30,433 nt of DNA from a virus. Position 1 is the first letter of the stretch. The number at the start of each line of letters is the position of its first letter. Both the position numbers and the translations under genes were made by a program. Below the pieces are notes generated by a model that made no database searches, had not been told where the DNA came from, and was given only the letters and a program-made list of their open reading frames with translations. The stretch spans positions 1-30,433 of IMG/VR virus record IMGVR_UViG_3300032288_001757; one strand, given 5' to 3'. Positions 494-17,200 of the stretch are shown one piece after another.

Positions 494-850
494 TTATTTA
501 TCTTGCAAGTATTTTTGTATTATTTTTTGCCCTTCCTCAAATCCATAGGCCACTTCCGCACCATAACCCATTGATTCTGCTAGGTTTAAAAACTGTGCCT
601 GATTTTGTTGTAATTTTGCACTTTTATCTTTTTTCATCTCAATAAATAGTCCATGTAGGCCATTAGCTGGAATCATAAGGAATAAGTCTGAAACGCCTGC
701 CGTAACCCCTTCAGCCTTTAATTTTATGGCCGTTCCTATATGCCTTGCGCCCCCATTTGGGATGGCAAATAGGCATTTAGCCATCAATGGATACTGAAGC
801 CGAAACCATTTAATAAGCAAGGACTGTGCCAGGTGTTCTTGATTGCGCAT
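494..850 (-). CDS. VRR-NUC domain nuclease
   Basis: A 118-aa protein that matches a single stand-alone VRR-NUC domain of the PD-(D/E)XK superfamily. Visible motifs are FAIPNGG (28-34), GVSD with the acidic residue D55, and IEMK with E71 and K73, followed by Q84 in the helix after the core. Phage VRR-NUC proteins are associated with Holliday-junction or flap cleavage during recombination and packaging. The ATG at 850 is chosen. A GTG five codons earlier (865) is possible, but it falls inside the -35 box of the opposite promoter and neither start has a clear Shine-Dalgarno site. The gene is the first of the leftward unit that continues into the DUF1376 gene. Confidence 0.9.
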   Translation of the reverse strand: MRNQEHLAQSLLIKWFRLQYPLMAKCLFAIPNGGARHIGTAIKLKAEGVTAGVSDLFLMIPANGLHGLFIEMKKDKSAKLQQNQAQFLNLAESMGYGAEVAYGFEEGQKIIQKYLQDK

Positions 851-858
851 AAAAAAAA

Positions 859-886
859 TTGACACAAATATTAAAAAGGGTATATT
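859..886 (+). promoter_or_regulatory. Strong sigma70-type promoter for the rightward early operon
   Basis: A perfect -35 box TTGACA (859-864) is followed after 16 bases by TATATT (881-886). Transcription would begin near 893, about 24 bases before the first gene at 917, which has a good AAGGAAA ribosome site. It would drive the secreted peptide and the recombination genes. Confidence 0.75.
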
Positions 887-890
887 AGCA
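882..890 (-). promoter_or_regulatory. Extended -10 promoter for the leftward nuclease/replication genes
   Basis: On the minus strand the bases read TGCTAATAT, an extended -10 (TGn followed by TAATAT, 887-882). It lies almost on top of the -10 box of the rightward promoter, so the two should compete for polymerase. No convincing -35 box is visible. The predicted start near 875 would leave a very short leader before the VRR-NUC gene, consistent with the lack of a Shine-Dalgarno site there. Confidence 0.4.
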
Positions 891-916
891 CCTGTAACAA
901 CAAAAAAGGAAACGAT

Positions 917-1174
917 ATGAAACTATTAACCGCACTATTAATCGCACTACCAATCGCTTCATTCGCAGGCGAACCAGCTAAACTCCGTTATAATTGGGTT
1001 GAAAAAAAATGGAATTACGCACCCAAAGAAGCCAAACTTAAATATAATTGGACTGCCGACCAATACGAGTTTGTTATGCCAAACTCACAATTAAAACTTA
1101 ATACTCAATCTAATAACTATGAGTATGTTCAAACTCAAATTAGCAATCCTTATCAATCTGAAATAGGGGAATAA
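917..1174 (+). CDS. Secreted small protein with three YNW-type repeats
   Basis: An 85-aa protein. It opens with a classical Sec signal peptide (MKLLTALLIALPIASFAG, probable cleavage after SFA at residue 17). The mature part is three imperfect repeats of about 17-19 residues: KLRYNWVEKKWNYAP, KLKYNWTADQYEFVMP and QLKLNTQSNNYEYVQ. The pattern KLxYNWxxxxYEY suggests alternating beta strands with exposed aromatics. It is the first gene after the strong promoter, so it is probably made early and abundantly and exported to the periplasm. No function is recognised. Possible roles include changing the envelope or superinfection exclusion, but this is only inference from location. Confidence 0.8.
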   Translation: MKLLTALLIALPIASFAGEPAKLRYNWVEKKWNYAPKEAKLKYNWTADQYEFVMPNSQLKLNTQSNNYEYVQTQISNPYQSEIGE

Positions 1175-1175
1175 T

Positions 1176-1289
1176 ATGACAACACAAAATAAGAAATTAG
1201 TAGTTTATGCCATTGCCGTATATGCATATTTTGGCTTGTGGTTGTATGTATTGTATCCTTTACTAGACAAATTCTTAAAAAGCGTATAA
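1176..1289 (+). CDS. 37-aa single-helix membrane peptide
   Basis: The frame encodes 37 residues (MTTQNKKLVVYAIAVYAYF, then GLWLYVLYPLLDKFLKSV). Residues 8-30 form one hydrophobic segment, with lysines on both sides. The ATG is one base after the stop of the secreted repeat protein, and AGGGGA within the end of that gene serves as ribosome site, so the two are probably translationally coupled. Inner-membrane location is likely. The function is unknown; pairing with an exported protein suggests an envelope task. Confidence 0.65.
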   Translation: MTTQNKKLVVYAIAVYAYFGLWLYVLYPLLDKFLKSV

Positions 1290-1323
1290 TATGACGACAA
1301 ATCAATCACTTACGGGAGCTGAT

Positions 1324-1677
1324 ATGGCTGACCAAGTTGCAATTGAAAATAAGATACATATTCAAGCTTTGCATCATCCTGATCCTGATTTTTATGGTGA
1401 TGATGATCAAATTAGGAATATGCAAGAACTTATTGAATATTACCTAACTTTCCAATGTCAAAATTGGGGCGACCTATATGCTGACGCTGAAAATTCAGGC
1501 CCATTTATTACTAAAATTCATAGCATTTTATTTAATGCTAAAGATGATGAATTAGGCCGTATTCGTGATGAATTTAATAAAGCTATTAAAGACATGGCCA
1601 AGTATGTTTATAACAACCATGAAACTAATAGTTGGGCTAAACGCATCTATGATGCTACAATAGAAAATATCGTTTAG
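1324..1677 (+). CDS. Hypothetical acidic early protein
   Basis: A 117-aa protein from the ATG at 1324, which has GGGAG five bases upstream. An ATG at 1291 in the same frame would add 11 residues, but no ribosome site is evident before it. The sequence is acidic and mostly helical in appearance (ELIEYYLTFQCQNWGDLYAD, FNKAIKDMAKYVYNN), with no signal peptide or membrane segment and no motif I recognise. It lies between the membrane peptide and the ERF gene in the rightward early operon. A role in DNA metabolism is possible from context only. Confidence 0.75.
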   Translation: MADQVAIENKIHIQALHHPDPDFYGDDDQIRNMQELIEYYLTFQCQNWGDLYADAENSGPFITKIHSILFNAKDDELGRIRDEFNKAIKDMAKYVYNNHETNSWAKRIYDATIENIV

Positions 1678-1701
1678 AAACTTTTATAAGGACAAGATAA
1701 G

Positions 1702-2244
1702 ATGAAAACTTCCGATAGCATTAAACATATTGCTGAAGCTTTAGTGTCGGCGCAAAAAGAAATTAAATTTGCCGTTAAAGATTCAACCAATCCTCACTAC
1801 AAATCTAAATATGCCAATATAAATTCAGTTATTGATGCGGTTAAAAAACCACTCAATGATAATGGCATAGCAATACTTCAATCATTAAGTCCTTCCGATG
1901 ACGGCAAACTTCACTTAACTACCCGTTTAATCCATAGTTCAGGGGAATGGATTGAAGATACTGCCGTCTGCCCTATTCAAAAGCAAGATCCACAAGGTTT
2001 AGGATCAGCCATATCTTATATTCGCCGTTATAGTTTATCTGCTATGTGCGCCGTTTATGCCGATGATGATGATGGCCAATCAGCCGCTCTCAATGCCGCA
2101 GATTATCTTCAAAAAATTAAAGACAGTCAAACATTAGAAGAGTTGCAAGCTAACTATAATTTTGTTATGGGTGAAGTTAAGAATGATCGCACTTTATCTA
2201 AAATGGTGATTGATGCTAAAGATAAAAGAAAGGCGGAACTATGA
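1702..2244 (+). CDS. erf: ERF-family single-strand annealing protein
   Basis: A 180-aa protein of the ERF family, ring-forming single-strand annealing proteins typified by Erf of phage P22. The family signature is clear at residues 97-125: PQGLGSAISYIRRYSL, then DDDDGQ. The N-terminal part has the usual lysine-rich stretch and NPHYKSKYANI. It would anneal the 3' tails produced by the exonuclease encoded three genes downstream, giving recombination or genome circularisation. The stop overlaps the next ATG (ATGA at 2241-2244), indicating coupling. Its length is slightly short for the family and the C-terminal tail is brief. Confidence 0.92.
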   Translation: MKTSDSIKHIAEALVSAQKEIKFAVKDSTNPHYKSKYANINSVIDAVKKPLNDNGIAILQSLSPSDDGKLHLTTRLIHSSGEWIEDTAVCPIQKQDPQGLGSAISYIRRYSLSAMCAVYADDDDGQSAALNAADYLQKIKDSQTLEELQANYNFVMGEVKNDRTLSKMVIDAKDKRKAEL

Positions 2245-2414
2245 TTGACGGCTTAAGAAACAGTAATTTTTTTGGGGTGAAGCTACCCTATTCGGATCAA
2301 GAATTAATGGCCGTAGAAGCCCGCAAAACACGAATAGAAGCCCTTAAAAGAGAGCTAGGTAATAAATATATATTAGCCCCTTTATATGGCAAGATTAAAA
2401 GCCCTCGACTATGA
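2241..2414 (+). CDS. 57-aa hypothetical protein between erf and the nuclease-like gene
   Basis: A short frame that starts MIDGLRNSNFFGVKLPYSD and ends GKIKSPRL. It overlaps its upstream neighbour by ATGA (2241-2244) and its downstream neighbour by ATGA (2411-2414), which supports it as a real coupled gene. The middle (ELMAVEARKTRIEALKREL) is a likely amphipathic helix. No motif identifies it. Its place inside the recombination block suggests a small accessory factor. Confidence 0.65.
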   Translation: MIDGLRNSNFFGVKLPYSDQELMAVEARKTRIEALKRELGNKYILAPLYGKIKSPRL

Positions 2415-2857
2415 ATGGGGCTTATTCTTATAAAGAAAGAAATAATATCGTAAATATAGCTGAAGTATTGTTTGAAGCTTATTGTCAATCCAAAGGTTAT
2501 TTTTATAGAAGATTAGGGTTTGATGAGAAAAACGATCCTATACCTAATTTTTATGACCTTAATACTTTTATTAGAAATATGCCTGATTTTTATATTAATA
2601 ATAATGGCAAAGCTGGGTTAATAATGGTTAAGGGAACGGCTAATATTAAAGCTTCAGAAATTAAAATGCTTCCAATGTTTATGGAATGGTATAGCTCTGA
2701 AAGATGCCCATTATTATATGCATTTTGTTTTAAAGATCAAAAACCATTATTACTACATCCTGATAAAGTTATATTTTTGTATGACAATGCAACAGATCAA
2801 CAATGGCATGACGGCGTAACTTATAGAAACTTAAATTTAAACAAGGAAACTATATGA
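2411..2857 (+). CDS. PD-(D/E)XK-like nuclease-fold protein (degenerate site)
   Basis: A 148-aa protein. The core MPDFYINNNGKAGLIMVKG (57-75) has the layout of a PD-(D/E)XK nuclease: P58-D59, a short turn, then a beta strand ending in V73-K74. The residue where the second acid should be is M72 instead of Glu or Asp. The following helix (KASEIKMLPMFMEWY) and strand fit the fold. It may therefore be a small restriction-like nuclease with an altered site, or a non-catalytic relative. It lies between ERF and the YqaJ exonuclease and overlaps the latter by ATGA. Confidence 0.6.
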   Translation: MNGAYSYKERNNIVNIAEVLFEAYCQSKGYFYRRLGFDEKNDPIPNFYDLNTFIRNMPDFYINNNGKAGLIMVKGTANIKASEIKMLPMFMEWYSSERCPLLYAFCFKDQKPLLLHPDKVIFLYDNATDQQWHDGVTYRNLNLNKETI

Positions 2858-3513
2858 AATTAGAAGATAGAATTATTAAAGGTATAGAGCAAGGCTCACC
2901 CGAATGGATGGCTTTAAGAATAGGTCGCATAGGTGGTAGTCGCATGGCTGATCTTTTAACTGAAGGCAAATCAGGCGAATCTTTAACACGCCGTAAATAT
3001 AAAAATGAGCTTATAAGAGAAAGATTGACAAGTAAAAAATTAGATACCTATAAAACGCCTGCTATGCAAAGAGGAATTGATTTAGAACCAATGGCTAGGG
3101 CATGGTATGAAGTCCATCATAATGTGTTTGTAGATCAAGTAGCGATTGTTTTGCATCCTACTATTGAAGGTGGTCAATGCTCACCTGACGGCCTAGTTGG
3201 TAATAATTCTTTAATTGAGATCAAAATACCCAATCCTGAAAACCACCTAGATAATATTCTAACAGGTGGTAAACAATTAGAACAATATTATGACCAGGTA
3301 ATGTGGCAATTAGCCTGTATGCCTGAAAGAGAATTTTGCGACCTTATATCTTATGATCCTGATATGCCTGATCATTTACAAGGGTTCGTAAAGCGTATTT
3401 ATCGAGATGATAAATATATAAAAACAATGGAAGATAAGGTGATCTTATTCTTGCAGGAAATAGAAACTACTGTTAATAACTTAAAGGAAATTAAAAATGG
3501 CAATAACCCATGA
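2854..3513 (+). CDS. YqaJ/lambda-exonuclease family recombinase
   Basis: A 219-aa protein with the YqaJ viral recombinase domain. Key residues are visible in order: GSPEWMALRIGRIGGS (14-29), RGIDLEP with E78, CSPDG with D112, IEIK with E122 and K124, and DQVMWQLAC with Q148. These match the metal-binding site of lambda Exo-type 5'-3' exonucleases. It would process double-stranded ends to give 3' tails for the ERF protein encoded upstream. The pairing of an exonuclease with an annealing protein is the usual two-component phage recombination system. The start overlaps the preceding stop (2854-2857) and the end overlaps the SSB-like gene by 17 bases. Confidence 0.92.
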   Translation: MKLEDRIIKGIEQGSPEWMALRIGRIGGSRMADLLTEGKSGESLTRRKYKNELIRERLTSKKLDTYKTPAMQRGIDLEPMARAWYEVHHNVFVDQVAIVLHPTIEGGQCSPDGLVGNNSLIEIKIPNPENHLDNILTGGKQLEQYYDQVMWQLACMPEREFCDLISYDPDMPDHLQGFVKRIYRDDKYIKTMEDKVILFLQEIETTVNNLKEIKNGNNP

Positions 3514-3724
3514 TCTAATCGCTAAAACAGGCGAATACACTAACGCTAATGGCGAAACAAAAGCTAGATGGCAAAAAGTAGGTGTAGCTATGAGCAATAA
3601 ACAAGGTGGAACTTCACTCTTGATCGAAAGTATCCCTGTTAATTTTGACGGCTGGCTTACTATGAGAGAACCGCAACCTAAACAAGGTGGTAATGCAGAG
3701 GATAAAACTGATCTACCATTTTAA
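3497..3724 (+). CDS. SSB-like small protein with DLPF C-terminal tip
   Basis: A 75-aa protein. It has a short beta-rich body (GETKARWQKVGVAM, TSLLIESIPVNFDGWL), then a Gln/Gly/Pro linker and an acidic end, EDKTDLPF. An acidic tail closing on D-L-P-F copies the C-terminal tip of bacterial SSB, which docks host repair and replication enzymes. The body is shorter than a full OB-fold SSB of roughly 110 residues, so this may be a minimal SSB relative or a protein that mimics the tip. It is the last gene of the recombination block, which fits handling of single-stranded DNA. Confidence 0.65.
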   Translation: MAITHDLIAKTGEYTNANGETKARWQKVGVAMSNKQGGTSLLIESIPVNFDGWLTMREPQPKQGGNAEDKTDLPF

Positions 3725-3743
3725 TGATTTTACTGATGGTTTG

Positions 3744-3764
3744 TTTCATTCAATATGAAATAAT
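3744..3764 (+). promoter_or_regulatory. Possible extended -10 promoter and inverted repeat before pqqA
   Basis: In the 85-base gap before pqqA there is a perfect 6-bp inverted repeat, TTTCAT (3744-3749) and ATGAAA (3755-3760). It overlaps TGAAATAAT (3756-3764), which reads as an extended -10 element. No good -35 box is seen. The gap is large for this compact genome, so pqqA may have its own promoter in addition to read-through. Confidence 0.35.
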
Positions 3765-3809
3765 CTATTTGTAGAGTGAAAACCTACATTAACTTTTAAG
3801 GGGCATATT

Positions 3810-3881
3810 ATGTGGACAACTCCATCAGCAACAGAAATGAGATTTGGCTTTGAAGTTACAATGTATGTAATGAATAAGTAA
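3810..3881 (+). CDS. pqqA: Phage-encoded PqqA, peptide precursor of pyrroloquinoline quinone
   Basis: A 23-codon gene with a strong ribosome site AAGGGG six bases before ATG. It encodes MWTTPSATEM (1-10) followed by R11, F12, GFEVTMY (13-19) and VMNK (20-23). The length equals the classical PqqA (23 residues in Klebsiella). W2, P5, R11, G13, E15, V16, T17, Y19 and N22 fall at the same positions. E15 and Y19 are the residues whose side chains PqqE crosslinks to build PQQ, with PqqD as chaperone. No pqqB-E genes are present here, so the host would process the peptide. PQQ serves periplasmic methanol, alcohol and glucose dehydrogenases. The gene follows the recombination block and ends just before a terminator. 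I read it as an auxiliary metabolic gene boosting host PQQ supply. Confidence 0.92.
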   Translation: MWTTPSATEMRFGFEVTMYVMNK

Positions 3882-3907
3882 TGATCATAGTAACAGATTG
3901 TTATTAG

Positions 3908-3939
3908 TAAAAAAGAAGGGGCTTAATTGCCCCTTTTTT
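3908..3939. terminator. Bidirectional intrinsic terminator between early and late units
   Basis: The stem GGGGC (3918-3922) and GCCCC (3929-3933) encloses a TTAATT loop. It is flanked by an A-rich run on the left and six T on the right, so it reads as a terminator on both strands. It closes the rightward pqqA transcript and the very long leftward late transcript, which converge here. Confidence 0.85.
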
Positions 3940-3969
3940 ATTTGATACGATATGATATCAATTATAAGA

Positions 3970-4167
3970 TCATTTAATATAATGATCGCCTGTATTGCCG
4001 TTTATGCCAATTAAATCCATACGATCCTCATCCCAAGTATCTGATGCATCGTCTGAATCAAAATACTTTTCCTTGCGGCCAAACACTAAATCATAATTAT
4101 CATCATATTGTTTCTTTTGTTTCAATTTGTTGGTTGATCCCTTACCAGCTTCAGAATATTTACTCAT
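3970..4167 (-). CDS. Small conserved-type phage hypothetical protein
   Basis: A 65-aa hydrophilic protein. The N-terminal half (MSKYSEAGKGSTNKL, QKKQYDDNYDLVFGRKEK) resembles a short protein that is widespread in phages of aquatic bacteria, with the pattern GKGS-(x)n-Y-(x)2-NYD-(x)2-FG-K. The C-terminal half is acidic (SDDASDTWDEDRMD). It has no membrane segment. It is the last gene of the leftward late unit, overlapping the HNH gene by 8 bases and lying some 30 bases before the terminator. The function is unknown. Confidence 0.8.
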   Translation of the reverse strand: MSKYSEAGKGSTNKLKQKKQYDDNYDLVFGRKEKYFDSDDASDTWDEDRMDLIGINGNTGDHYIK

Positions 4168-4519
4168 AGTTTTCCCTCACCCAATTAGAAAAGTTAATTA
4201 ATTCGTCTTTATTAGCAGTCGATTTCATAGCATTAGCTTTAAAAGAAATAATTTGTATATTACCTTTAATATAACCTTTTGTATTATCTATGCGATCAAT
4301 ACTTGGGCTTAAATCTCTATTTTTATCAATGGTAATTTTTAACGGCAGTCCCAAAATGGGACATATTTCAGGAATAATTATATCGGATAATTCTATATTG
4401 AATTCTATGCCTTTAGATTTGGCACGATGTTTAGCAAGTAAAAATATATCTTTTTCTCGATTGTTTGATTTCCAATCGCGCAAATATTGTTTTCTATTGC
4501 TCTTATTTTTTAAGGGCAT
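4160..4519 (-). CDS. HNH-type homing endonuclease-like protein
   Basis: A 119-aa protein. The segment EICPILGLPL (51-60), SPSIDRIDNTKGYIKGNIQI (71-90) and ISFKANAMKS (91-100) is the pattern of small phage HNH nucleases. D75, R76, N87 and N96 are at conserved places. Only one cysteine is present, so no zinc knuckle is formed. The N-terminal part is basic and would bind DNA. Its ATG shares one base with the stop of the small membrane protein upstream. It may be a free-standing homing endonuclease or a nuclease that assists packaging; most HNH genes of the second kind lie next to terminase, which is not the case here. Confidence 0.8.
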   Translation of the reverse strand: MPLKNKSNRKQYLRDWKSNNREKDIFLLAKHRAKSKGIEFNIELSDIIIPEICPILGLPLKITIDKNRDLSPSIDRIDNTKGYIKGNIQIISFKANAMKSTANKDELINFSNWVRENYE

Positions 4520-4692
4520 TATTTTTTAAATTTAGAACTCGCCCATTCATAAATTCTAATGCAATACCAAATAATTGATAATAATGCGGCAATAGCTGGT
4601 AAAAATTTCATAACAGTTCCCAAAACTGTAACTCCCGAAACTGTATCTAATATATGTTTTGTGTGTTCGTTTACTTCATCTAAATGCTTCAT
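4519..4692 (-). CDS. 57-aa single-helix membrane protein (holin-like candidate)
   Basis: The frame reads MKHLDEVNEHTKHILDTVSG, then VTVLGTVMKFLPAIAALLSI, then IWYCIRIYEWASSKFKK. A hydrophilic amphipathic N-terminus is followed by a hydrophobic stretch at about residues 21-46 and a basic end. The stop overlaps the next ATG (TAATG at 4517-4521). One membrane segment with a charged tail is compatible with a small holin or antiholin, but no endolysin is seen nearby, so this is only a possibility. Confidence 0.7.
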   Translation of the reverse strand: MKHLDEVNEHTKHILDTVSGVTVLGTVMKFLPAIAALLSIIWYCIRIYEWASSKFKK

Positions 4693-4707
4693 TTAAATAA
4701 CTTTCTA

Positions 4708-4905
4708 CTAATTAATAACATTTTTCTCAATAGCCAAGTAAAGGCTACCATCATTGTTGCCGCAAGATATATAAGCATAAGAACCACAAGATAATAAAAA
4801 TACCAAGTAATTTTTACCATCGTAGTGATCAACATCAACGCTTTTGATTGTTTTATTTTGTAGAAAATCGAAGAGGTCATCAATGGTTTCATGGGAAGTT
4901 TGCAT
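4708..4905 (-). CDS. Small hypothetical protein
   Basis: A 65-aa protein beginning MQTSHETIDDLFDFLQNKT, with a beta-rich middle (YLVFLLSCGSYAYISCGN). It overlaps the end of the GT9-like gene by 17 bases and lies 15 bases before the membrane-protein gene, which matches the spacing of this operon. A competing frame on the same strand (4689-4892) has a poorer composition and conflicts with the neighbour. No family is recognised. It does not look secreted. Confidence 0.6.
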   Translation of the reverse strand: MQTSHETIDDLFDFLQNKTIKSVDVDHYDGKNYLVFLLSCGSYAYISCGNNDGSLYLAIEKNVIN

Positions 4906-5332
4906 TTAAACTTTCAATCACTATTTCAGGATTAACAAATTTGTTTGCATCATGCTGTGTATCTTCCCACCATAAAAATTGATTTTCAACCAAATTACTT
5001 CTATCTTTTAGTAAATTTATATTTTCAGGGTGTCCAAAGATCAAAGGATCAGAAACCGACCATAGAACTATACCATATTTTTTACGATCCCATGCAAAAT
5101 GCTGAAAAAAAGAATCGCAACTTATCCATGTTTTGCATTGATCAACAAGCTTTCCTAACTCATCTAGTGATAAATTTTTTCTAAAATCATCAACTAATTG
5201 TTGTTCGCCTTCAATGCCAACTTGAACTATTGGTTCTTTAATCAGTCTAATTAGTTCCTTCCAATAAGGATAATTTTTAGCATTAGTCTTGCCACTTTTT
5301 AAAGCTTTAGAATATGGGCTAATGATAATCAT
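4889..5332 (-). CDS. GT9 (heptosyltransferase)-like C-terminal half
   Basis: A 147-aa protein that reads as the C-terminal, donor-binding domain of a family 9 glycosyltransferase. Visible pieces are ISPYSKALKSGK near the N-terminus, PIVQVGIEGEQQL (34-46), and WISCDSFFQHFAW (69-81) with D73, S74 and H78, which correspond to the D-S-G-x-x-H signature of ADP-heptose LPS heptosyltransferases; the glycine is replaced by Phe. The matching N-terminal half is the tail of the preceding gene, with which it overlaps by ATGA (5329-5332). The two may assemble into one enzyme. Sugar and acceptor are unknown. Confidence 0.68.
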   Translation of the reverse strand: MIIISPYSKALKSGKTNAKNYPYWKELIRLIKEPIVQVGIEGEQQLVDDFRKNLSLDELGKLVDQCKTWISCDSFFQHFAWDRKKYGIVLWSVSDPLIFGHPENINLLKDRSNLVENQFLWWEDTQHDANKFVNPEIVIESLNANFP

Positions 5333-6297
5333 AAATATAACTTTCTATAAGCATCTTCTAAACTACCTTTCCATTTCCATTGATACATTTTAATATAAAT
5401 ATTCCATGTATCGAGATCACCAAATAATGCATGAGCTTCAGCAATAGAACGACCAGGCACTATTTCAGGAAAGCAAGTAAATATTTCAGGATTTTTAATG
5501 TCGGGTAATACGCGTTTAAATATTATATGATCGCCCATACCGCCATTTAATATCACAATAGTTTTATCACTATAATTAATTAAATTATTAAATACAGTTT
5601 CATCTTGGCCATAAAGAATCTGATTGGTTTCACTTCTAATACCACCATTAGGATTTTTAAAATGCCAAGTATTAGCATTAGGAACGGCTAAAATTTTATA
5701 GCCTTTTTTAAATAGCCCATAAGTAAATAAAGTTTCTTCTCTATGTGCTACTCTTGAAAGTCCTAAATGATAATTATGCACGCCAGCACGATAAAGAAAA
5801 GAACAATGAAGATGCTCAACTTCTTTGACCTTATCAATAAATGACCATTGAATATTAGGCTCTCTATTAATAAGTTCTATTTTACCTGTCGGCTTTATCG
5901 CTTCCTGTTTAATGGGCGGCGTTAAAATTGCACCGCCTATTGCGCCTACATTTTTATGAGTATAATTAAAAAGATTTTGTAAAACATTAGGTTCAGGAAT
6001 AGCATCATCATCAACGCGCCACACCCAATCATAGCCCATTGTATTAGCCATTTGATGTATATAATGCTGACCTTTTTTATGCGCATAAACCCATTCCCAT
6101 TTAATGCCTTTGATTGATAGCATTTGAAAAAAATAGCTATACACCAATTCATTTCGCATATCTTGTGGTTCATCATTATCATCAAAAATAACTAACTTAT
6201 CGACCTTTTTTGTTTGATTAATAACGGCATTAAGCGTTAGAGGTAAAGTCGTATGATAACGACCGCGAGTTGCAATTGAGCATAAAACATTAGCCAC
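5329..6297 (-). CDS. GT2 glycosyltransferase fused to a GT9 N-terminal segment
   Basis: A 322-aa protein. Residues 1-240 form a family 2 glycosyltransferase: CSIATRGRY (6-14), KLVIFDDNDEP (34-44) for nucleotide binding, WRVDDDAIPEP (93-103) with the D96-D98 metal site, and AHREETLFTYGL (184-195). From about 245 a different unit begins, IVILNGGMGDHIIFKRVLPD, with the glycine-rich GMGD motif (253-256) that opens GT9 enzymes. It breaks off at the stop, and the rest of the GT9 appears in the next gene. It overlaps the methyltransferase gene by 8 bases. The enzyme is probably cytoplasmic and modifies virion protein or host glycan; the substrate is unknown. Confidence 0.82.
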   Translation of the reverse strand: MANVLCSIATRGRYHTTLPLTLNAVINQTKKVDKLVIFDDNDEPQDMRNELVYSYFFQMLSIKGIKWEWVYAHKKGQHYIHQMANTMGYDWVWRVDDDAIPEPNVLQNLFNYTHKNVGAIGGAILTPPIKQEAIKPTGKIELINREPNIQWSFIDKVKEVEHLHCSFLYRAGVHNYHLGLSRVAHREETLFTYGLFKKGYKILAVPNANTWHFKNPNGGIRSETNQILYGQDETVFNNLINYSDKTIVILNGGMGDHIIFKRVLPDIKNPEIFTCFPEIVPGRSIAEAHALFGDLDTWNIYIKMYQWKWKGSLEDAYRKLYL

Positions 6298-6919
6298 GAT
6301 CCCACCTCATAATCATAAGATTAAATTTATTGTTTTCATTAATTTCAGGTAAAGTTTCTGAAATAAATCCATGCTCATTAATATAATTGTATTGAAAATC
6401 GGGAAAGTGTGATTCGTTTAAGCCATGAAGTTTATGATGCTCACCCCAAAATCCTACAGGCTCATTATGTGGAGTGGTTAATAAAAGGCGTTTACAATGT
6501 TTCTTTAATTTTTGTGCTATTTCTAATCCATTATCAATATGCTCAATTAATTCAAAAGCAATAATAGTGTCATATTGAGCTAAAGGGTAGGTATTGATAT
6601 CAGCGTTTGTAAAAGATGCGTTTAAACCCCATTCCTGTTCGTTTGCAACCTCTATAATAATAGGATCATAATCTAAACCAAGATAATTAATGTCATTTGG
6701 AAGGAATTGTGATCCGTAACCTGTTGAGCAACCTATTTCAAGAATATTTTTACCTAATAGATTGCGGTTAGCCCAAAGATAACGAGTAGCTTCTCTAGGA
6801 AATACGGGATCGCCTTTAAGAAAAACCGCTCGCTCGTAATTATTTGTTAATAAAAATCTATAATAATTTTTATCATGTTGTTTAAAGTATGGTAACGCAT
6901 CTTGTATTGTTTTATCCAT
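6290..6919 (-). CDS. Class I SAM-dependent methyltransferase
   Basis: A 209-aa protein with a Rossmann methyltransferase core. Motif I is ILEIGCSTGYGSQFL (59-73). The acidic residue after strand 2 is D83 (YLGLDYDP). Motif IV-like IIAFELIEHIDNG follows, then LLLTTPHNEP. The acceptor cannot be told from the sequence. Members of this type with a trailing H-x-L-H-x-x-(N/S) helix (HHKLHGLNESHF) occur in glycan and lipid modification clusters. Standing between the fibre genes and two glycosyltransferase genes, it may cap or modify a sugar chain. No DNA methyltransferase motif such as DPPY is present. Confidence 0.85.
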   Translation of the reverse strand: MDKTIQDALPYFKQHDKNYYRFLLTNNYERAVFLKGDPVFPREATRYLWANRNLLGKNILEIGCSTGYGSQFLPNDINYLGLDYDPIIIEVANEQEWGLNASFTNADINTYPLAQYDTIIAFELIEHIDNGLEIAQKLKKHCKRLLLTTPHNEPVGFWGEHHKLHGLNESHFPDFQYNYINEHGFISETLPEINENNKFNLMIMRWDRG

Positions 6920-6930
6920 ATTATTCCATG

Positions 6931-7473
6931 TTATGTTGTTAATTGAGTTCGTTGTTGATAAATAGTATTTTCTGTAATTGTAAAATAACTATCACCTGAA
7001 TTGGCGGCAGTAGTGCCATTAAAAAATAAATCAACACTTCTATTACCACCCATTGAGCCAATATTTATAATACCAATTTCAACAACAAGTATATCACCAT
7101 TAACAAAAGATGTTGATGTAGGTGTTACTGAAGCTGTAACGACTGTTTCTGAAGTGCCTAATTCTACTGTAGCTGAAGCCTGCCCCAATGATGCACTTAA
7201 TGATCCAGCACTATATTTATAAATACGCATGCCTAAAGAAGCGTTTGCTTGTGCATTAGATTCTTGACCTCTTAAATTAAAAGATACCGAACCTGATAAA
7301 GTAAATGTCAATAGAGGTTTTGTGGCCCAATAACCTAAACTAATCCAAGTGCCACTTGCAATTGTAGTTCCTGAAGTAGTTGTAACACCCGTTCCTCTTT
7401 CAAGAGTTAAAACTCTATTTATTGTAGAAGATATACCTATATTTTTATTAGTTAAATAATATACAGTTGCCAT
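6931..7473 (-). CDS. Beta-rich virion/fibre-associated protein
   Basis: A 180-aa protein dominated by Ser, Thr, Gly and Val in alternating patterns (FTLSGSVSFNLRGQESNAQA, TVELGTSETVVTASVTPTS), as in jelly-roll or Ig-like folds. There is no signal peptide. It starts one base from the end of the collagen-like gene, so it is probably made with it. Likely a decoration or fibre-tip protein. The closing segment, SGDSYFTITENTIYQQ, looks like the last strand of a trimeric beta domain. The family is not recognised, so the role is inferred from composition and context. Confidence 0.68.
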   Translation of the reverse strand: MATVYYLTNKNIGISSTINRVLTLERGTGVTTTSGTTIASGTWISLGYWATKPLLTFTLSGSVSFNLRGQESNAQANASLGMRIYKYSAGSLSASLGQASATVELGTSETVVTASVTPTSTSFVNGDILVVEIGIINIGSMGGNRSVDLFFNGTTAANSGDSYFTITENTIYQQRTQLTT

Positions 7474-7474
7474 G

Positions 7475-10400
7475 TTAGAATTCTAATGTAACCGCTAAAG
7501 CTGGCACTGTGCCTGATACCGCAGTTATTTCCAACCAAACAAAAGAACCTGCGGGAATATTAGGATTAGCAAAGCTTGTAGTTGATGTGCCTGTGCTTAT
7601 GCTTGTTGTTGTAATTGCTGACGATGTTACCGCCGTTCCTGCCGCAGATTGATCAGAGCCATATTTAATATTAAATGATACGCTTGGCGTTGCTGATCCC
7701 AATGGAAGCACCGAAACAATTTTAGTTATAGTTCTAGCTAAAGTTGTATAAAATAAAGTAACATCAACATCGGCTGTAGTTGGATAATTTAATAATGATG
7801 ATTTAGGCCCCATTGCACCTACTTGGCCACTAAAACCACTTATACCTGAAAATCCTGATAATCCTTGCGCACCACTAAATCCACTAAATCCTGATACGCC
7901 TGATCCGCTAAATCCTGAATAGCCACTAATACCGCTACCACTAAATCCTGAATAACCGCTAAAGCCCGATTGACCAACATTAATACCAAAATAAGCAACT
8001 GATTGAACAATATCAGTCGTAACACAAGCGCCAATAGTAAATGAAGTGCCATTAGTTGCAGTTACATCACTTGCGGCTAATCTAGCACCATTACGATATA
8101 CATCTAAATAACCAACTGTATATGAAACAGTAAATGTAGTTTGTCCATTGGTTGGAGTAAAATCAGTAACAGTTCTAGTAGTTGATGTAGCATTAATTCC
8201 GCTATAACCACTGTAACCTGAAAAACCTGAAGTTCCAGCCCCGCTATAACCACTATAACCGCTAATTCCCGAACCTGAATAACCTGAATAGCCACTAATA
8301 CCACTAGCCCCATTCGTTCCATTAGTTCCTGAAAAACCACTAATTCCTGAAGCGCCCTGCGCTCCACTAAATCCGCTAATTCCTGAAACACCTTGTGCGC
8401 CACTAAATCCACTAATACCACTAAACCCTGAAATTCCTGATTGGCCTGCAATTCCAATATTCCAAGATGCAATAGTGCCTGATCCGCCAGTTGTATCCAC
8501 ATTGACTGTAAATGATGTCGTTGTATAAGCTGTAATTGCGCCTTCCATAAAATTAGATGGTGTTGCTGAAGATGCAACTCTTACTCGCAATCCAACCGCA
8601 AAAGCATTTGTGCCTTGTGATTGATTTACAGTAAATACTTTTGAACCTGTGCCAATAGTTGTTGAAGTTGTAGAAGTTAATCCAGCATAACCTAATCCAC
8701 TAAATCCTGATATGCCACTAGCACCACTAAACCCACTTATACCTGAAGCGCCTACAGCACCACTAAACCCACTTATACCTGAAGCTCCACTAAATCCACT
8801 AATACCACTTGCGCCATTCGTTCCATTCGTTCCTGAAATACCTGACCATCCACTAAAACCACTAATACCTGAAGCGCCTTGCGCACCACTAAACCCACTT
8901 ATACCTGAAGCTCCACTAAATCCACTAATACCTGAAGCGCCTTGCGCACCACTAAAACCACTAATACCTGACGCACCATTGATACCACTATAACCCGATA
9001 AACCTTGTGCGCCTGAATATCCACTATAACCACTTATACCGCTCGCACCTACAGCACCCGAATATCCACTAAACCCACTTATACCACTAGCGCCATTTGC
9101 GCCATTTATGCCTGAATAACCTGAATACCCACTTATGCCACTAGCGCCTACAGCACCGCTATAACCACTATAACCACTTATTCCACTAGCTCCATTAGTG
9201 CCACTAAAACCTGATATACCTGACGCACCATTGATACCGCTAAATCCTGACAATCCTTGAGCGCCTGAATATCCTGAATATCCTGACAATCCACTAACGC
9301 CTTGTGCGCCAGTAGCTCCACTATATCCGCTAAAACCACTTAAACCTTGCGCACCACTAAATCCTGATAAGCCACTAATGCCTTGCGCGCCACTATATCC
9401 GCTGTAACCGCTAATTCCTGACGCACCATTAGCACCGCTAAATCCGCTAATACCACTTGCACCATTAATGCCACTGTAACCTGATAAACCTTGTGCGCCA
9501 CTATAACCTGAATAGCCTGATATTCCTGATCCTGAATAGCCTGAATATCCACTTATACCTGAAGCTCCATTAGCTCCATTAATTCCTGAATATCCACTAT
9601 AACCACTAATGCCGCTTCCACTGTAACCTGAATATCCTGATATGCCACTAGCACCATTAGCTCCACTATATCCACTAATTCCACTAGCGCCATTAATACC
9701 GCTAAATCCTGATAACCCTTGTTGGCCTGAATATCCTGAATATCCACTATAGCCACTAATGCCAGCAATACCTTGAGCGCCACTATAACCACTTAATCCA
9801 CTAGCTCCTTGCGCGCCACTAAAGCCACTATAGCCTGAAAAGCCGCTATAGCCACTAAATCCTGACACACCATTAACAAGCGCAAAAACTAAATCATGGT
9901 TATTAGAAAAGCCTGTAGTTCCTGTGCCTACACTTGCAATTAAAGTTACAGGATATTCCCAATAAGAAGTAGAAGTGCCTGGATTATAATGAATAGGCGT
10001 GCCATTGATTTCCCAAGTTTGAGAATTAGCACTTGAAGTTTGATCTTGAATAATAAATTGTTCGGTTTGTTTTAATAACGCTAAATAAATATCAATATCA
10101 TCATTAGTTCTAGTAAAATGCGAAACAAAAATTGCAGTTGCACTTATTTGAGTTGCATTATTCCAAGATAAATAACCATTGCCTGGATAACCTGAAATGG
10201 ATGTTGTATTTGCATCATATTCAAAAAAGCTAGATGAAGCTCCAGGCGTGCCGCTATAACCACTAAATCCTGAATAACCTGATATGCCTGATGCGCCAAC
10301 TTGTCCGCTATATCCGCTAATGCCGCTAAAGCCACTAAAGCCACTTAAACCTGATGCGCCAACTTGTCCGCTAAAACCACTATAGCCTGATATACCGCTT

Positions 10401-11437
10401 GCACCATTTTGACCTGAATATCCACTAGCTCCATTAATACCGCTGTAACCACTAAATCCACTAATACCACTACCTGAATATCCTGAATAACCTGAATAGC
10501 CTGATATTCCTGACGCTCCGTTTGTGCCGTTAATGCCGCTATATCCACTATATCCTGAAATACCACTAGCGCCAGTAGCGCCCACTGCGCCGCTGTATCC
10601 TGATATTCCACTCCATCCTGAAATGCCACTAGCGCCATTTTGACCACTATATCCACTTAATCCATTTATACCTGAATAACCGCTTATGCCTTGTTGGCCG
10701 CTAAATCCACTATATCCACTAATTCCGCTTGCGCCTGTAGCACCGCTATAACCCGAAAGTCCACTAGCTCCATTAATTCCACTATAGCCACTAAATCCTG
10801 ATTGGCCAATTTGACCTGAATATCCACTGTAACCTGATATGCCACTACCTGAATATCCTGATATACCTGAATAACCTGAATAACCTGAATAACCGCTTAT
10901 ACCTGATCCTGAATAGCCTGATATGCCGCTATAACCTGAAAAACCACTTTGACCATTTATACCTGAATAGCCTGATATACCGCTATATCCGCTAATGCCA
11001 CTAAATCCACTTTGACCTTGTTGTCCACTATAACCGCTATAGCCTGATACTCCGCTACCACTATAGCCTGATTGTCCTTGAGCGCCGCTGTATCCTGAAT
11101 ATCCCGAATAACCTGAAATGCCTAATCCTGAAAATCCGCTTATACCTGAAAATCCACTTATTCCACTATAACCTGAAATACCTGAATAACCACTATATCC
11201 TGATTGACCACTTAAACCACTTGTGCCAATGCCACTATAACCACTAAATCCGCTGTAGCCCGAATATCCTGATAGTCCTGAAGCGCCTGTTACACCGCGA
11301 TCAACAACGACTGTCGTTGTAGGTGTAGGCGTTACTTCAACATTAAGCGTAGTGCCTTGAGATAGTGTTACATCGGTTGAATTAACTGATACGGCTACCT
11401 CATTTGATGGTGCTGGAGTGATTGATAATGTAGCCAT
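7475..11437 (-). CDS. Giant collagen-like fibre protein (Gly-X-Ser repeats)
   Basis: A 1320-aa protein. After a short beta-rich N-terminus (1-47) it consists of Gly-X-Y triplets, mostly G-Y-S, G-F-S, G-I-S and G-A-S, at about 48-395, 525-913, 1000-1080 and 1156-1208. Three non-collagen domains interrupt them (about 396-525, 913-1000, 1080-1156) and a beta-rich domain closes the protein (1209-1320). Proline is almost absent, so any triple helix would not rely on hydroxyproline. It probably forms trimeric flexible fibres on the virion, like other phage collagen-like proteins. The second interruption domain and the C-terminal domain are Thr/Ser-rich sandwiches. Repeat number is expected to vary between relatives. 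Confidence 0.88.
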   Translation of the reverse strand: MATLSITPAPSNEVAVSVNSTDVTLSQGTTLNVEVTPTPTTTVVVDRGVTGASGLSGYSGYSGFSGYSGIGTSGLSGQSGYSGYSGISGYSGISGFSGISGFSGLGISGYSGYSGYSGAQGQSGYSGSGVSGYSGYSGQQGQSGFSGISGYSGISGYSGINGQSGFSGYSGISGYSGSGISGYSGYSGYSGISGYSGSGISGYSGYSGQIGQSGFSGYSGINGASGLSGYSGATGASGISGYSGFSGQQGISGYSGINGLSGYSGQNGASGISGWSGISGYSGAVGATGASGISGYSGYSGINGTNGASGISGYSGYSGYSGSGISGFSGYSGINGASGYSGQNGASGISGYSGFSGQVGASGLSGFSGFSGISGYSGQVGASGISGYSGFSGYSGTPGASSSFFEYDANTTSISGYPGNGYLSWNNATQISATAIFVSHFTRTNDDIDIYLALLKQTEQFIIQDQTSSANSQTWEINGTPIHYNPGTSTSYWEYPVTLIASVGTGTTGFSNNHDLVFALVNGVSGFSGYSGFSGYSGFSGAQGASGLSGYSGAQGIAGISGYSGYSGYSGQQGLSGFSGINGASGISGYSGANGASGISGYSGYSGSGISGYSGYSGINGANGASGISGYSGYSGSGISGYSGYSGAQGLSGYSGINGASGISGFSGANGASGISGYSGYSGAQGISGLSGFSGAQGLSGFSGYSGATGAQGVSGLSGYSGYSGAQGLSGFSGINGASGISGFSGTNGASGISGYSGYSGAVGASGISGYSGYSGINGANGASGISGFSGYSGAVGASGISGYSGYSGAQGLSGYSGINGASGISGFSGAQGASGISGFSGASGISGFSGAQGASGISGFSGWSGISGTNGTNGASGISGFSGASGISGFSGAVGASGISGFSGASGISGFSGLGYAGLTSTTSTTIGTGSKVFTVNQSQGTNAFAVGLRVRVASSATPSNFMEGAITAYTTTSFTVNVDTTGGSGTIASWNIGIAGQSGISGFSGISGFSGAQGVSGISGFSGAQGASGISGFSGTNGTNGASGISGYSGYSGSGISGYSGYSGAGTSGFSGYSGYSGINATSTTRTVTDFTPTNGQTTFTVSYTVGYLDVYRNGARLAASDVTATNGTSFTIGACVTTDIVQSVAYFGINVGQSGFSGYSGFSGSGISGYSGFSGSGVSGFSGFSGAQGLSGFSGISGFSGQVGAMGPKSSLLNYPTTADVDVTLFYTTLARTITKIVSVLPLGSATPSVSFNIKYGSDQSAAGTAVTSSAITTTSISTGTSTTSFANPNIPAGSFVWLEITAVSGTVPALAVTLEF
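7815..11310 (-). repeat. Collagen-coding short repeat tracts
   Basis: DNA tracts of 9-bp units encoding G-(Y/F/I/A)-S triplets lie at about 10250-11310, 8700-9865, 8205-8440 and 7815-7970, with larger repeated blocks coding for NGASGISGYSG and AQGASGISGFSG. Synonymous Gly and Ser codons alternate, so long exact repeats are limited. Recombination between units could change fibre length. Confidence 0.85.
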
Positions 11438-13393: not shown

Positions 13394-14236
13394 TTATGCA
13401 ATATATTCAAGAATAACTACGCCACTTACACCGCCTGTTCCAGTGCTTCCAGCAATGCCAATAGGCGCACCAGGCCCAGGTGATCCAGCTAGGAATGGCG
13501 CATTAGGCCCTGAAACGGCATATGTAATTGCGGCAGGTGCGGCTGTGCTGACGACAACCGACCCACTTATTAATCCTATTGGAGTATTATTTCCAACAAC
13601 TGAATTAAAGGTTCCTGCTTTTATAGTAGTCCCGGACGATACTGTTCCTGTTCCATCAGTGCTTGTTACAGCTGGATTTCCACCGCTACCACCTGTTGCA
13701 CTTATAGCTGGCCCAAAAGATGAAGTTCCGCCAGCCCCGCCAGAAACTCCATTAGGCGCATTAGCCGCACCAGCACCACCAGCCCCAACTGTAATTGTAA
13801 CAGGTGCAGACACAGGAACTTCTGCCCAAGCGAATCCCCCTCTGCCACCAGTTCTACCAGAAATACTTGGACTTGTGTAAGAGCCACCACCACCACCACC
13901 ACCTACTACCATTACTCTTACTTTATTTGTTGTTGTAGGGCAAGTCCAAGTAGCAGGTGATGTATAAATTTCAGTTTGTAAATTGCCTGCGGCGGAAGCA
14001 ATTGTAATTGATCCTGCGCCATTAGTAATTGTAACGCCTGATCCAGCAGTTAAAGTAGATTTAGTTAAAGTATTACCTGTGCTATTGCCAATTAATAATT
14101 GACCATTGGTATATGTGGTTTGATTAGTGCCACCATTAGCTACGGGCAAAGCGCCTGTAACGGAAGTTGTTAAATCAGCCTGACCTGAACTATTTACCTT
14201 ATTAGCAAATTGACTTAAATTAAACGCTTGTGTCAT
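13394..14236 (-). CDS. Glycine-rich tail fibre/adhesin
   Basis: A 280-aa protein. The N-terminal part contains ALPVANGGTNQTTYTNGQLL (29-48), a motif repeated in many phage tail fibres. A central beta domain follows (TSPATWTCPTTTNKVRVMVV). The C-terminal half is very rich in glycine, alanine and serine (VVGGGGGGGSYTS, GAGGAGAANAPNGVSGGAGG), as in polyglycine-II adhesin tips. It probably forms the receptor-contacting tip of a fibre attached to the hub protein encoded directly upstream, from which it is separated by ten bases. Confidence 0.82.
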   Translation of the reverse strand: MTQAFNLSQFANKVNSSGQADLTTSVTGALPVANGGTNQTTYTNGQLLIGNSTGNTLTKSTLTAGSGVTITNGAGSITIASAAGNLQTEIYTSPATWTCPTTTNKVRVMVVGGGGGGGSYTSPSISGRTGGRGGFAWAEVPVSAPVTITVGAGGAGAANAPNGVSGGAGGTSSFGPAISATGGSGGNPAVTSTDGTGTVSSGTTIKAGTFNSVVGNNTPIGLISGSVVVSTAAPAAITYAVSGPNAPFLAGSPGPGAPIGIAGSTGTGGVSGVVILEYIA

Positions 14237-14246
14237 TTATTTCCCC

Positions 14247-17200
14247 TTATGCCGCCCCTGCGCGAGCGTATGTTTGTTGTAATAAAATTGTTGTATTATT
14301 ATTGTAAGCAGTTGTTAAAACATAATTGTTTGTGCCTTCAGTATAATCAACGCCTGATCTTAATAAAGTTCCATTTGCATATATATTTAATGCGCTAGGT
14401 GTAAATGGGAACGAATAAGTAAATTGCCCATTCACTGTAAATGTAATGACATTTTGCGGTGTGCCTGTAGGCGTTGTTAAATTATTGGCGCTAAACTGTA
14501 TTATAACTAATCTTCCTGTAGTTGTGCTAGGAAAATTTGTAATAGAATTATTTATAACATCAAAGTCTTGCTCATTAACAACTGCGCCATTAATAAATGG
14601 TAATTCATATCCTGAATGAAAGCCCCATGTTGTAGGCGTGTATATTGTAGCGTTAGTTAAATCTGCTTCCCAACGGCTAAAAACAGGATAACTTGATCCT
14701 GAAGCCCTGTAAGTATAAATTTTATTACCAATAGATGCCGTTATAGCACCTGTAAATGTAATAGTGCGAGTGCCATAATTAACTGTAGAAACTGTGTAAG
14801 TAGTTGGTGTGCCTGTATTGCTAAATGTTAATAAATCACCTGCTCTAATTAATTGTTGCGGCATTTGAGCTATATCCCAAACAATACTTGATGCACCTAC
14901 AGTTGAAACTGTCAATTGAGTAGGATCGTAATAATTGCCGCTTGATGTAGCTCTAAATGAAATAATAATAATCACATCATTTAAAGTAACGCCTGTGCCA
15001 AAAGTAACTGTGCCTGTAGCGCCACTTGTATCTGTATATAAAGATTCATTTTGCAATAAGCCGTTTCTAAATACTAAACATTGATCTTTAATATAAGATG
15101 ATGCTCTAGTTACTGTAAATACAGTTTGGCCTGAAGTAGCTGTAAATGTGGCAATAGTCATAAAGAAACTATCAGGGCTAGTAAATCCAACAACTCGCCC
15201 ATAAATATCAACTGTTATTGTTGCGGCTGATCCTGTAAATGTAGGTGCGCCACCAAAATCTAAAAATTGATCTAAAGATGCAATAAGTCTGCCATCATTT
15301 GTATTATTAATGGCTACTTGACCTGTGCCAACTGTAGTCGTTCCTGTCGATATAACTTGGCCTGTAGGTTGATCTAAATCAATAATGTTTGGATTTAAAC
15401 CATTTGGATCAAGCGCTGACCATATTGTAGGATTAAATTGTATAGCAGTTGTAGGGACAAAAGCACCTGTGCCTGCGGCGTATGCGGCAAAATCTGTATC
15501 AAAACTAAATTTACGGCTTTGACGATTAGCATAAGCTAAATAAACATTTGTGCTAAAAGCAGGATCAGCTAAATACCAATTATATAAAGCAGGATTAGTT
15601 GACGCAGTAGTTCCTGATTGATTACATAATCCAAAATAAAGTCTGTTAGTAGGGCTAAAACTAAAGTTACTTGTGCCTGTTATATTATCTGCATAAGCTA
15701 CAGCAAGATATTTGTCTGTGTATTGAAATGTTCTTGGTCGCCATATAAGTTTTGCTGAAGCTAAAGAATAATTACTTGAAGCTAAACTATTAACCATTCT
15801 TACAAAGAAATACCAATCACCCGCAGGAATATCAAATAATTGAACATCAGGCATAGCAATATTATTTGTATAAGGATTGCCATTAGCATTAACCGCAGTA
15901 GTTCCTGCAAATATATATTGACTTGATGTTGGAAATTGAAAAGCAGAATACCATACTTCAGCATATTGAATAATGCCAGCGCTAGATGATGTAATATTAA
16001 CTATAAATGATGGATTGGCAATATTAGAAAAAGTAGTTCCAATAATAGGCGCTGGAACTGTGCCAAAAATTGTTGGGCTTGACAATCCTGTATTTGGTGA
16101 TTCCTCAAACGCAGTAATATTTTTATCATCATAAACTGTAGGATTAAATTCAGATAAACTTAATGCGGCAGTTACTTGACCTGAATCGCTAATCTTTTCA
16201 GTAACTTTCATTATTCTAAATAATTTAGCCACCCATCCATAATTAGCATTAGTTATTGTAACAATGTCGCCCGCTTCTAATTGTAAGCCTATATAGTTAA
16301 TTTCGCATTGAACTTGAAGATCATCTCTAACGGCTTCTAAAAGCCTATTTGTAATATATTGAGCTTGAACATTATTATTTGTTAATGGTAAAGAAATAGA
16401 TTGTTTATTAACAGGCTCATTAGGATAAAGTAATTCAGGCTTAATAACAGAAAGATCATAAGTTACGGAAGCAAAAGAATCAACTTGCGTGCCATCAGGA
16501 AATTTAGTTTCAACAATATTAAATGCATTAGAAGTATCAATCGGCGTTACTTGAATAGTTGAAATTAAATTACTATTATTAATATTCATAGCTACTGTAT
16601 AAATAGGCGTTTGAGTAACAATAGACCAAAGACTTAATATTTCATTGTAACGAACTAAACAATCAGAGCAATTAGCCATATACTGAACATTGCTCATAAT
16701 TTTATTGTTAGTATCTATTACACCATTAAATTCAAATCTTTTAATAGTTTCAGTTAATCCTGAATAAGTTTTATAACTAATTAATTGATCAGAATAAGTA
16801 TTAAGTGTTGTTAATGATGCTGTATCAATTTGACTTATTGGAATAGCGGCTCCATAACGAGTGGAAGTAAAATAATCTAAAAAGCAATCACCTGGTTTTT
16901 TTCTAGCATTTATAATTTGAAATCTTAATTGTTGAAGTGCAGTAATATTTTTATCTGCATTGTATTTAATATGAACTATTGCAAAAGCGCAATTAGTCAT
17001 TAATTTATCTTTATCCCATTTGTAAATTAAATTAGAAGCTTGCATAACTTGAATAGCATTAAAAGAACTATTAGTTTGACTATATGATCCATTTCTATAT
17101 AAATAAATATCTATATATCCTGAAACATCTTGAATATAACCTGTGCTTTCATCTTGAAGGCCTGTTACTTTATAAGTTTGACCAGGTGTAATGCTAAATA

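Follow-up and report, generated by a model that had tools for sequence, protein, structure and literature searches.

A solitary pqqA gene in phages of methylotrophic bacteria as a candidate source of the PQQ precursor peptide

Introduction

Is a 23-residue PqqA peptide encoded in a viral sequence a genuine gene product, and if so, why would a phage carry this one component of PQQ synthesis? The question is raised by a short frame in a viral sequence of 30,433 nucleotides (IMG/VR record IMGVR_UViG_3300032288_001757), the whole of which is referred to here as the window. OM43 and Methylopumilus-type bacteria oxidise methanol in coastal seas and lakes, where this is an important carbon flux. One PqqA is consumed for every PQQ formed, whereas the enzymes of the pathway are not consumed. 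In the host, the chaperone PqqD hands PqqA over to PqqE, and PqqE cross-links a Glu and a Tyr of the peptide. Cleavage and oxidation follow, with a protease, PqqB and PqqC completing PQQ (PMC10906245).

The pqqA gene and its signals

The frame on the plus strand of the window comprises 24 codons, reads MWTTPSATEMRFGFEVTMYVMNK followed by a stop codon, and is located in an intergenic position between a small SSB-like gene and a convergent gene. The features of the region are:

1702..2244, plus strand: ERF single-strand annealing recombinase (Pfam PF04404, 91.9 bits)
2854..3513, plus strand: YqaJ-type recombination exonuclease (Pfam PF09588, 65.9 bits)
3497..3724, plus strand: small SSB-like gene upstream of pqqA (the gene in the same place beside pqqA in MW202481 is annotated as putative ssDNA-binding; weak phrog_37570 match)
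3798..3803, plus strand: ribosome binding site AAGGGG, 6 nt before the ATG of pqqA (from the sequence)
3810..3881, stop included, plus strand: pqqA, 23-residue PQQ precursor (PF08042, TIGR02107, conservation in 257 viral copies)
3912..3939, plus strand: intrinsic-terminator hairpin behind pqqA (11-bp stem, -21.4 kcal/mol for 3882-3950, z -5.6)
3970..4167, minus strand: convergent small gene marking the far limit of the pqqA cistron (from the ORF list)

A sequence-only reading of the window had described a 23-codon gene with an AAGGGG site and the classical PqqA residues W2, P5, R11, G13, E15, V16, T17, Y19 and N22, and all of these were found as described. The profile search that it had proposed gave scores well over the cut-offs, with 41.3 bits against Pfam PF08042 (cut-off 21.1, E 1.4e-10, model positions 1-19 of 19) and 38.5 bits against the NCBIfam PqqA equivalog TIGR02107 (cut-off 20, positions 1-21 of 21). 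The PqqA motif pattern matched the window once and none of 100 shuffles. The E-x-x-x-Y motif characteristic of PqqA, whose Glu and Tyr give rise to PQQ, is present as E15-V-T-M-Y19, in which we take Glu15 and Tyr19 to be the cross-linked pair. Judged from its sequence, the frame encodes a full-length and complete PqqA. The predicted hairpin starts 30 nt past the stop codon, its 3' arm and tail are U-rich, and it is likely to be bidirectional, also serving the convergent gene.

The phage and its host

The window is viral, as evidenced by profile matches to portal, major head protein, tape measure and terminase, and pqqA closes a run of recombination genes in which it is preceded by the ERF, YqaJ and SSB-like genes. 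As expected of an auxiliary metabolic gene, it thus resides on a genuine phage genome with structural genes, and it also occurs in isolated phages (see below). By blastn, 92% of the 6.5 kb from 494 to 7000 aligns at 81% DNA identity with P19250A, a phage of the freshwater methylotroph Methylophilaceae bacterium IMCC19250. On this alignment the window phage is a relative of P19250A, which provides independent confirmation of the methylotroph host of Methylophilales type that had been proposed from the sequence alone.

The pqqA genes of the window and P19250A are identical at 62 of 69 bases and their peptides differ by the single change S6A. The intergenic DNA just before and behind the gene has diverged and can hardly be aligned up to the hairpin, while the terminator is kept. 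For phages MEP301, MEP401, MEP402 and ctXG6705 (a Manatee Spring phage), the part of the 6.5-kb region recognisable by blastn consists of pqqA and a few flanking bases only (73-87 nt).

Two other segments of the window merit mention. Positions 4199-4407 match, at 71% on the DNA level, a Rhizobium phage RHph_N3_13 gene that bears the annotation "postulated decoy of host sigma factor protein"; a frame of the window that overlaps this segment (4160-4519, minus strand) had no Pfam match. Positions 7475-11437 (minus strand) encode a protein of 1320 residues that consists mostly of SGYSG/SGFSG-type repeats and is a candidate collagen-like low-complexity tail or fibre protein.

pqqA in isolated methylophages

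A tblastn search with the window peptide against 50,697 phage records retrieved nine records of isolated Methylophilales/Methylophilaceae phages (P19250A, Venkman, MEP301, MEP401, MEP402 and four of Melnitz) as well as the metagenomic phage ctXG6705. The taxonomy lists further methylophages (MEP431-434, Venkman EXVC038S) beyond those compared here, and we do not claim universality. Cultured phage-host pairs in this set are Venkman or Melnitz with H5P1, MEP301 with FZCC2181 and P19250A with IMCC19250. The Melnitz peptide is MKWTKPVAQEMRFGFEVTMYIMTR. In P19250A the gene lies unannotated at 28085-28153 on the minus strand, and the site is likewise without any annotation in Venkman, MEP301 and MEP402. 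Melnitz and ctXG6705 have a "hypothetical protein" annotated across pqqA on the opposite strand (L006 5001-5066, L007 2119-2187), and these antisense annotations are probably not genes.

The carriers represent more than one lineage, since Venkman and P19250A were placed together at the genus level by the authors of Venkman (PMC8163748), while the record taxonomy lists Melnitz under Kyanoviridae and MEP402 under Zobellviridae. Carriage of pqqA is a general trait of cultured methylophages and not peculiar to the window phage, a point that the sequence-only reading had missed.

Occurrence and conservation in viral records

To estimate the spread of the gene in IMG/VR, we used a pattern in which W2, P5, G13, E15, V16, T17 and Y19 were fixed. 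At least 120 contigs contained the pattern; a sub-pattern that matched 16 of 120 contigs was again found in at least 120, and a further sub-pattern, present in 18 of 120 of that class, was found in 46. This gives a rough estimate of about 2,000-2,300 contigs with pqqA, from 46/(0.133 x 0.15), with an error of perhaps a third and with the contigs counted being fragments that are partly redundant. Environmental viral records that carry the gene number in the many hundreds.

The 257 viral copies that we examined fall into 184 distinct DNA versions, which encode 88 distinct peptides. All 257 encode 23 amino acids with a stop at codon 24, and all contain Glu15 and Tyr19, both of which were fixed by the search pattern. 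R11 and F14 were also invariant, neither being fixed as such by the pattern (F14 was left free and was found in 257/257). Two IMG/VR-wide scans, one for a codon 15 starting with a base other than G (E15 replaced) and one for a codon 19 starting with a base other than T (Y19 replaced), yielded no copy, each scan covering only some of the possible codons. A motif resembling a ribosome binding site precedes the gene in all 254 copies with readable upstream DNA. Terminator-like sites were located within 120 nt behind pqqA in 53 of 124 viral copies; the same kind of site turned up in 5 of 620 shuffled sequences and in 11 of 122 stretches from upstream of the gene.

At the 14 codons that the pattern did not fix, the pN/pS ratio was 0.255 for the phage copies (114 distinct sequences) and 0.182 for the host copies, with about 0.6 synonymous differences per site among the phage genes. 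Together with peptides identical to those of hosts, the ratio indicates a homologue of a host gene that is maintained by purifying selection across unrelated methylophages. A set of related phages without a conserved frame had been named beforehand as an outcome that would speak against a functional gene; the opposite was observed.

The nearest neighbour of 126 phage copies was another phage copy in 83 cases and a host copy in 20, with ties in 23, which suggests that pqqA may have been exchanged among phages, with some fresh capture from hosts. We claim no number of captures, as a gene of 69 nt whose synonymous sites are close to saturation cannot support a tree.

The viral gene is solitary. 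Exactly one copy of pqqA was present in each of 25 viral records, the window record included, and none of these contained a PqqE over the cut-off. Neither did tblastn identify PqqB-E in the window, so that the lone peptide gene described in the sequence-only reading is borne out; the usual pqqBCDE company of pqqA is absent there, but such company is not obligatory. No pqqB-E genes were found nearby in 256 of 257 viral loci, and PqqB adjoins pqqA in the remaining one (L340), which is probably host DNA. Host contamination of viral contigs as the source of pqqA was rejected on this count. The families adjoining pqqA vary by lineage and include the YqaJ exonuclease (39 loci), an endolysin (24), the major head protein (15) and a translation repressor (phrog_242, 12).

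Host copies of pqqA

A pattern scan of named genomes gave, among the matches listed, mostly Methylophilaceae and a few other Betaproteobacteria. The gene was present in 149 of 150 Methylophilaceae genomes, in up to 12 copies each, and pqqB-E were located within 8 kb of it in only 28 of 120 host stretches. Several pqqA copies alongside a single pqqBCDE set have already been reported for Methylophilaceae (PMC4109929), and a methylotrophic production strain has five copies (PMC9851590).

Host and phage genes thus encode the same 23-residue peptide, often identically (the window peptide occurs unchanged in the host loci L158, L163 and L233), and host copies too are often solitary and away from pqqBCDE. 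They differ in that the phage copy sits among phage genes and that its DNA has diverged mainly at synonymous sites. The window gene differs from the host copies compared at 4 or more of 69 nt, the nearest being 4 nt away.

In five Methylophilaceae-type contigs (L146, L149, L214, L224 and L232) two tandem pqqA genes are situated about 200 nt apart, the first of which encodes a distinct Q4/C21 peptide.

Proposed function and alternatives

We consider it probable that the phage pqqA is functional and serves as an auxiliary metabolic gene whose sole contribution to a cofactor pathway is the substrate that the pathway uses up. Because each PQQ costs one PqqA, the peptide needs fresh synthesis, whereas enzymes already present at infection can persist. 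Once host gene expression has come under phage control, PqqA would be the first component to run short and the PQQ enzymes would outlast the shut-off. The 23 codons of the phage gene would then restore PqqA, with the host PqqB-E performing the chemistry, so that PQQ synthesis could continue and the PQQ-dependent methanol dehydrogenase could be kept running, providing energy and carbon for virion production. PqqA added to a cell extract gave PQQ in 70-80% yield (Wang 2021, as cited in PMC9851590), which shows that the peptide is able by itself to drive synthesis when the enzymes are at hand. The transcript of xoxF, which encodes a methanol dehydrogenase, is more abundant than any other in an OM43 strain in culture (PMC5120137). 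The idea of substrate supply put forward in the sequence-only reading therefore stands up, whereas expression in infection and processing of the peptide are steps that we infer.

Counting against substrate supply is that the hosts already own 1-12 pqqA copies, and limitation by PqqA during infection is likewise something we infer. The multiple host copies may nevertheless be read as consistent with peptide supply being a matter of dosage. Enzymes can also limit PQQ, since in Acetobacter overexpression of pqqAB raises PQQ by only 29% as compared to eightfold for pqqABCDE (PMC7936290).

The PQQ could be destined for other quinoproteins, or for use as an antioxidant or signal, instead of methanol oxidation. 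PQQ has several enzyme partners, and only 1 of the 38 larger viral records tested encodes a PQQ methanol dehydrogenase of its own; the other 37 lack it, which leaves the host enzyme as the basis of the link to methanol oxidation. However, wherever the host of a carrier is known, the carrier is a methylotroph phage, and on one contig pqqA is accompanied by both a methanol dehydrogenase and a formate dehydrogenase, which makes such alternative uses unlikely as the main role.

Another explanation is that the phage PqqA acts as a decoy or inhibitor that occupies PqqD, PqqE or a regulator and shuts down PQQ synthesis or its regulation. A lone peptide could bind PqqD unprocessed (Kd of PqqA-PqqD about 0.4 uM, PMC10906245), and there are no biosynthetic enzymes beside the phage gene. 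The cross-linked residues would be dispensable for a decoy, yet the two scans, with their partial codon coverage, found no copy in which either was replaced, and the frequent letter-for-letter identity of phage and host peptides implies that the phage peptide should be a substrate. We regard the decoy as quite improbable.

A neutral passenger, that is a host gene recently acquired and without effect on the phage, would cost little to carry at only 72 nt, and the nearest host copy is just 4 nt away. It is contradicted by the low pN/pS ratio (0.26) at about 0.6 synonymous differences per site, by the universally kept length and ribosome binding site, by the retention of pqqA while the adjoining intergenic DNA diverges and by its presence in unrelated phage lineages, and is hardly credible. 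Integration into a host pqqA that is restored by the phage copy, as for some phages with tRNA genes, was rejected as extremely improbable: several scattered host copies could serve as attB and 2 of 25 viral records contain a serine recombinase (PF00239), but none contains a tyrosine integrase (PF00589), the serine recombinase was not found in the other 23, including those of P19250A, Melnitz and the window (where neither integrase profile had a match), the window copy is no closer than 4 of 69 nt to the host copies compared, and the whole gene with its ribosome site is retained, not the 3' end alone.

Returning to substrate supply, a broader proposal, which we favour with less assurance, is that pqqA is a near-universal and host-defining gene of methylotroph phages, repeatedly captured and exchanged by unrelated lineages as the consumed part of PQQ synthesis. 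It would represent a "substrate-only" class of auxiliary metabolic genes that gene callers systematically miss due to their length, and the viral influence on methanol oxidation would be much more common than recorded.

Relation to earlier work

A phage pqqA has been reported in detail once, in the Lake Baikal T4-like phage VP_266, along with a methanol dehydrogenase gene (Coutinho et al. 2020, PMC7678222), a report that the sequence-only reading did not mention. Both cases involve a phage-borne pqqA, a Methylophilaceae host and a proposed boost of methanol oxidation. However, VP_266 is a single large T4-like population with a methanol dehydrogenase gene as well, whereas pqqA is the only PQQ-related gene found in the window phage, a small P19250A-like phage, and is here found to be widespread. 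The same study stated that the genes it reported are all lacking from P19250A; for pqqA this is incorrect, as the gene is present at the site given above.

In a 2026 study of reservoir sediments, pqqA, pqqE and pqqD were listed among viral contigs as phosphate-solubilisation and phosphorus-cycle genes (PMC13188868). The viral contigs are thus said to carry pqqA, but it is one list item there, is not itself analysed and is absent from the listed transcribed viral genes. The pmoC gene of large methanotroph phages (PMC7674155) offers a parallel in that one part of a host pathway is on the phage and the rest comes from the host; PmoC is an enzyme subunit, whereas PqqA is a consumed substrate. pqqA was unmentioned in the searched text of the papers on Venkman, MEP301, MEP401/402 and Melnitz. 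We found no paper on phage-encoded pqqA as such in the literature accessible to us, with subscription papers and PMC11118758 (on phage ribosomal peptides, mentioning pqqA once) as possible prior art. Within the limits of this search, what is new is that small phages can have pqqA as their only PQQ gene, that the gene has gone unnoticed in isolated methylophages from several lineages, and the test of its conservation.

If supplying the PQQ pathway through 23 codons is routine for methylotroph phages, a viral influence on the methanol flux has been overlooked even in phages that have been isolated and sequenced. The gene would also be an unusually clean case of which pathway component a phage takes, namely the consumed peptide and not an enzyme, and could serve as a short marker by which uncultured phages are linked to methylotroph hosts.

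Other pqqA-bearing contigs

One sequence filed as "Acinetobacter phage MD-2021a" (CAKLQF020000010.1, L008) contains a pqqABCDE operon and ppk, and was set aside as apparently chromosomal host DNA that was misfiled. A search of the large pqqA contigs for AmoC/PmoC gave no matches, and neither did its control.

A putative viral contig of 72 kb with pqqA (IMGVR_UViG_3300025120_009955, contig positions 28000-46000, L353) encodes a PQQ methanol dehydrogenase (TIGR03075, 608 bits) and the alpha subunit of formate dehydrogenase (TIGR01591, 885 bits), and further a quinoprotein-associated SoxYZ-like carrier and CsgG, with features at 5990-7864, 7944-10784 and 14071-14790. It is possible that this is a phage set for methanol and formate oxidation, the viral nature of the whole contig being putative.

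Two very large IMG/VR contigs, L274 (339,794 bases) and L377 (216,820 bases), contain a different type of PqqA, also of 23 residues, and are perhaps jumbo phages of another PQQ-using host. In L377 the gene adjoins repeat proteins that resemble curli subunits.
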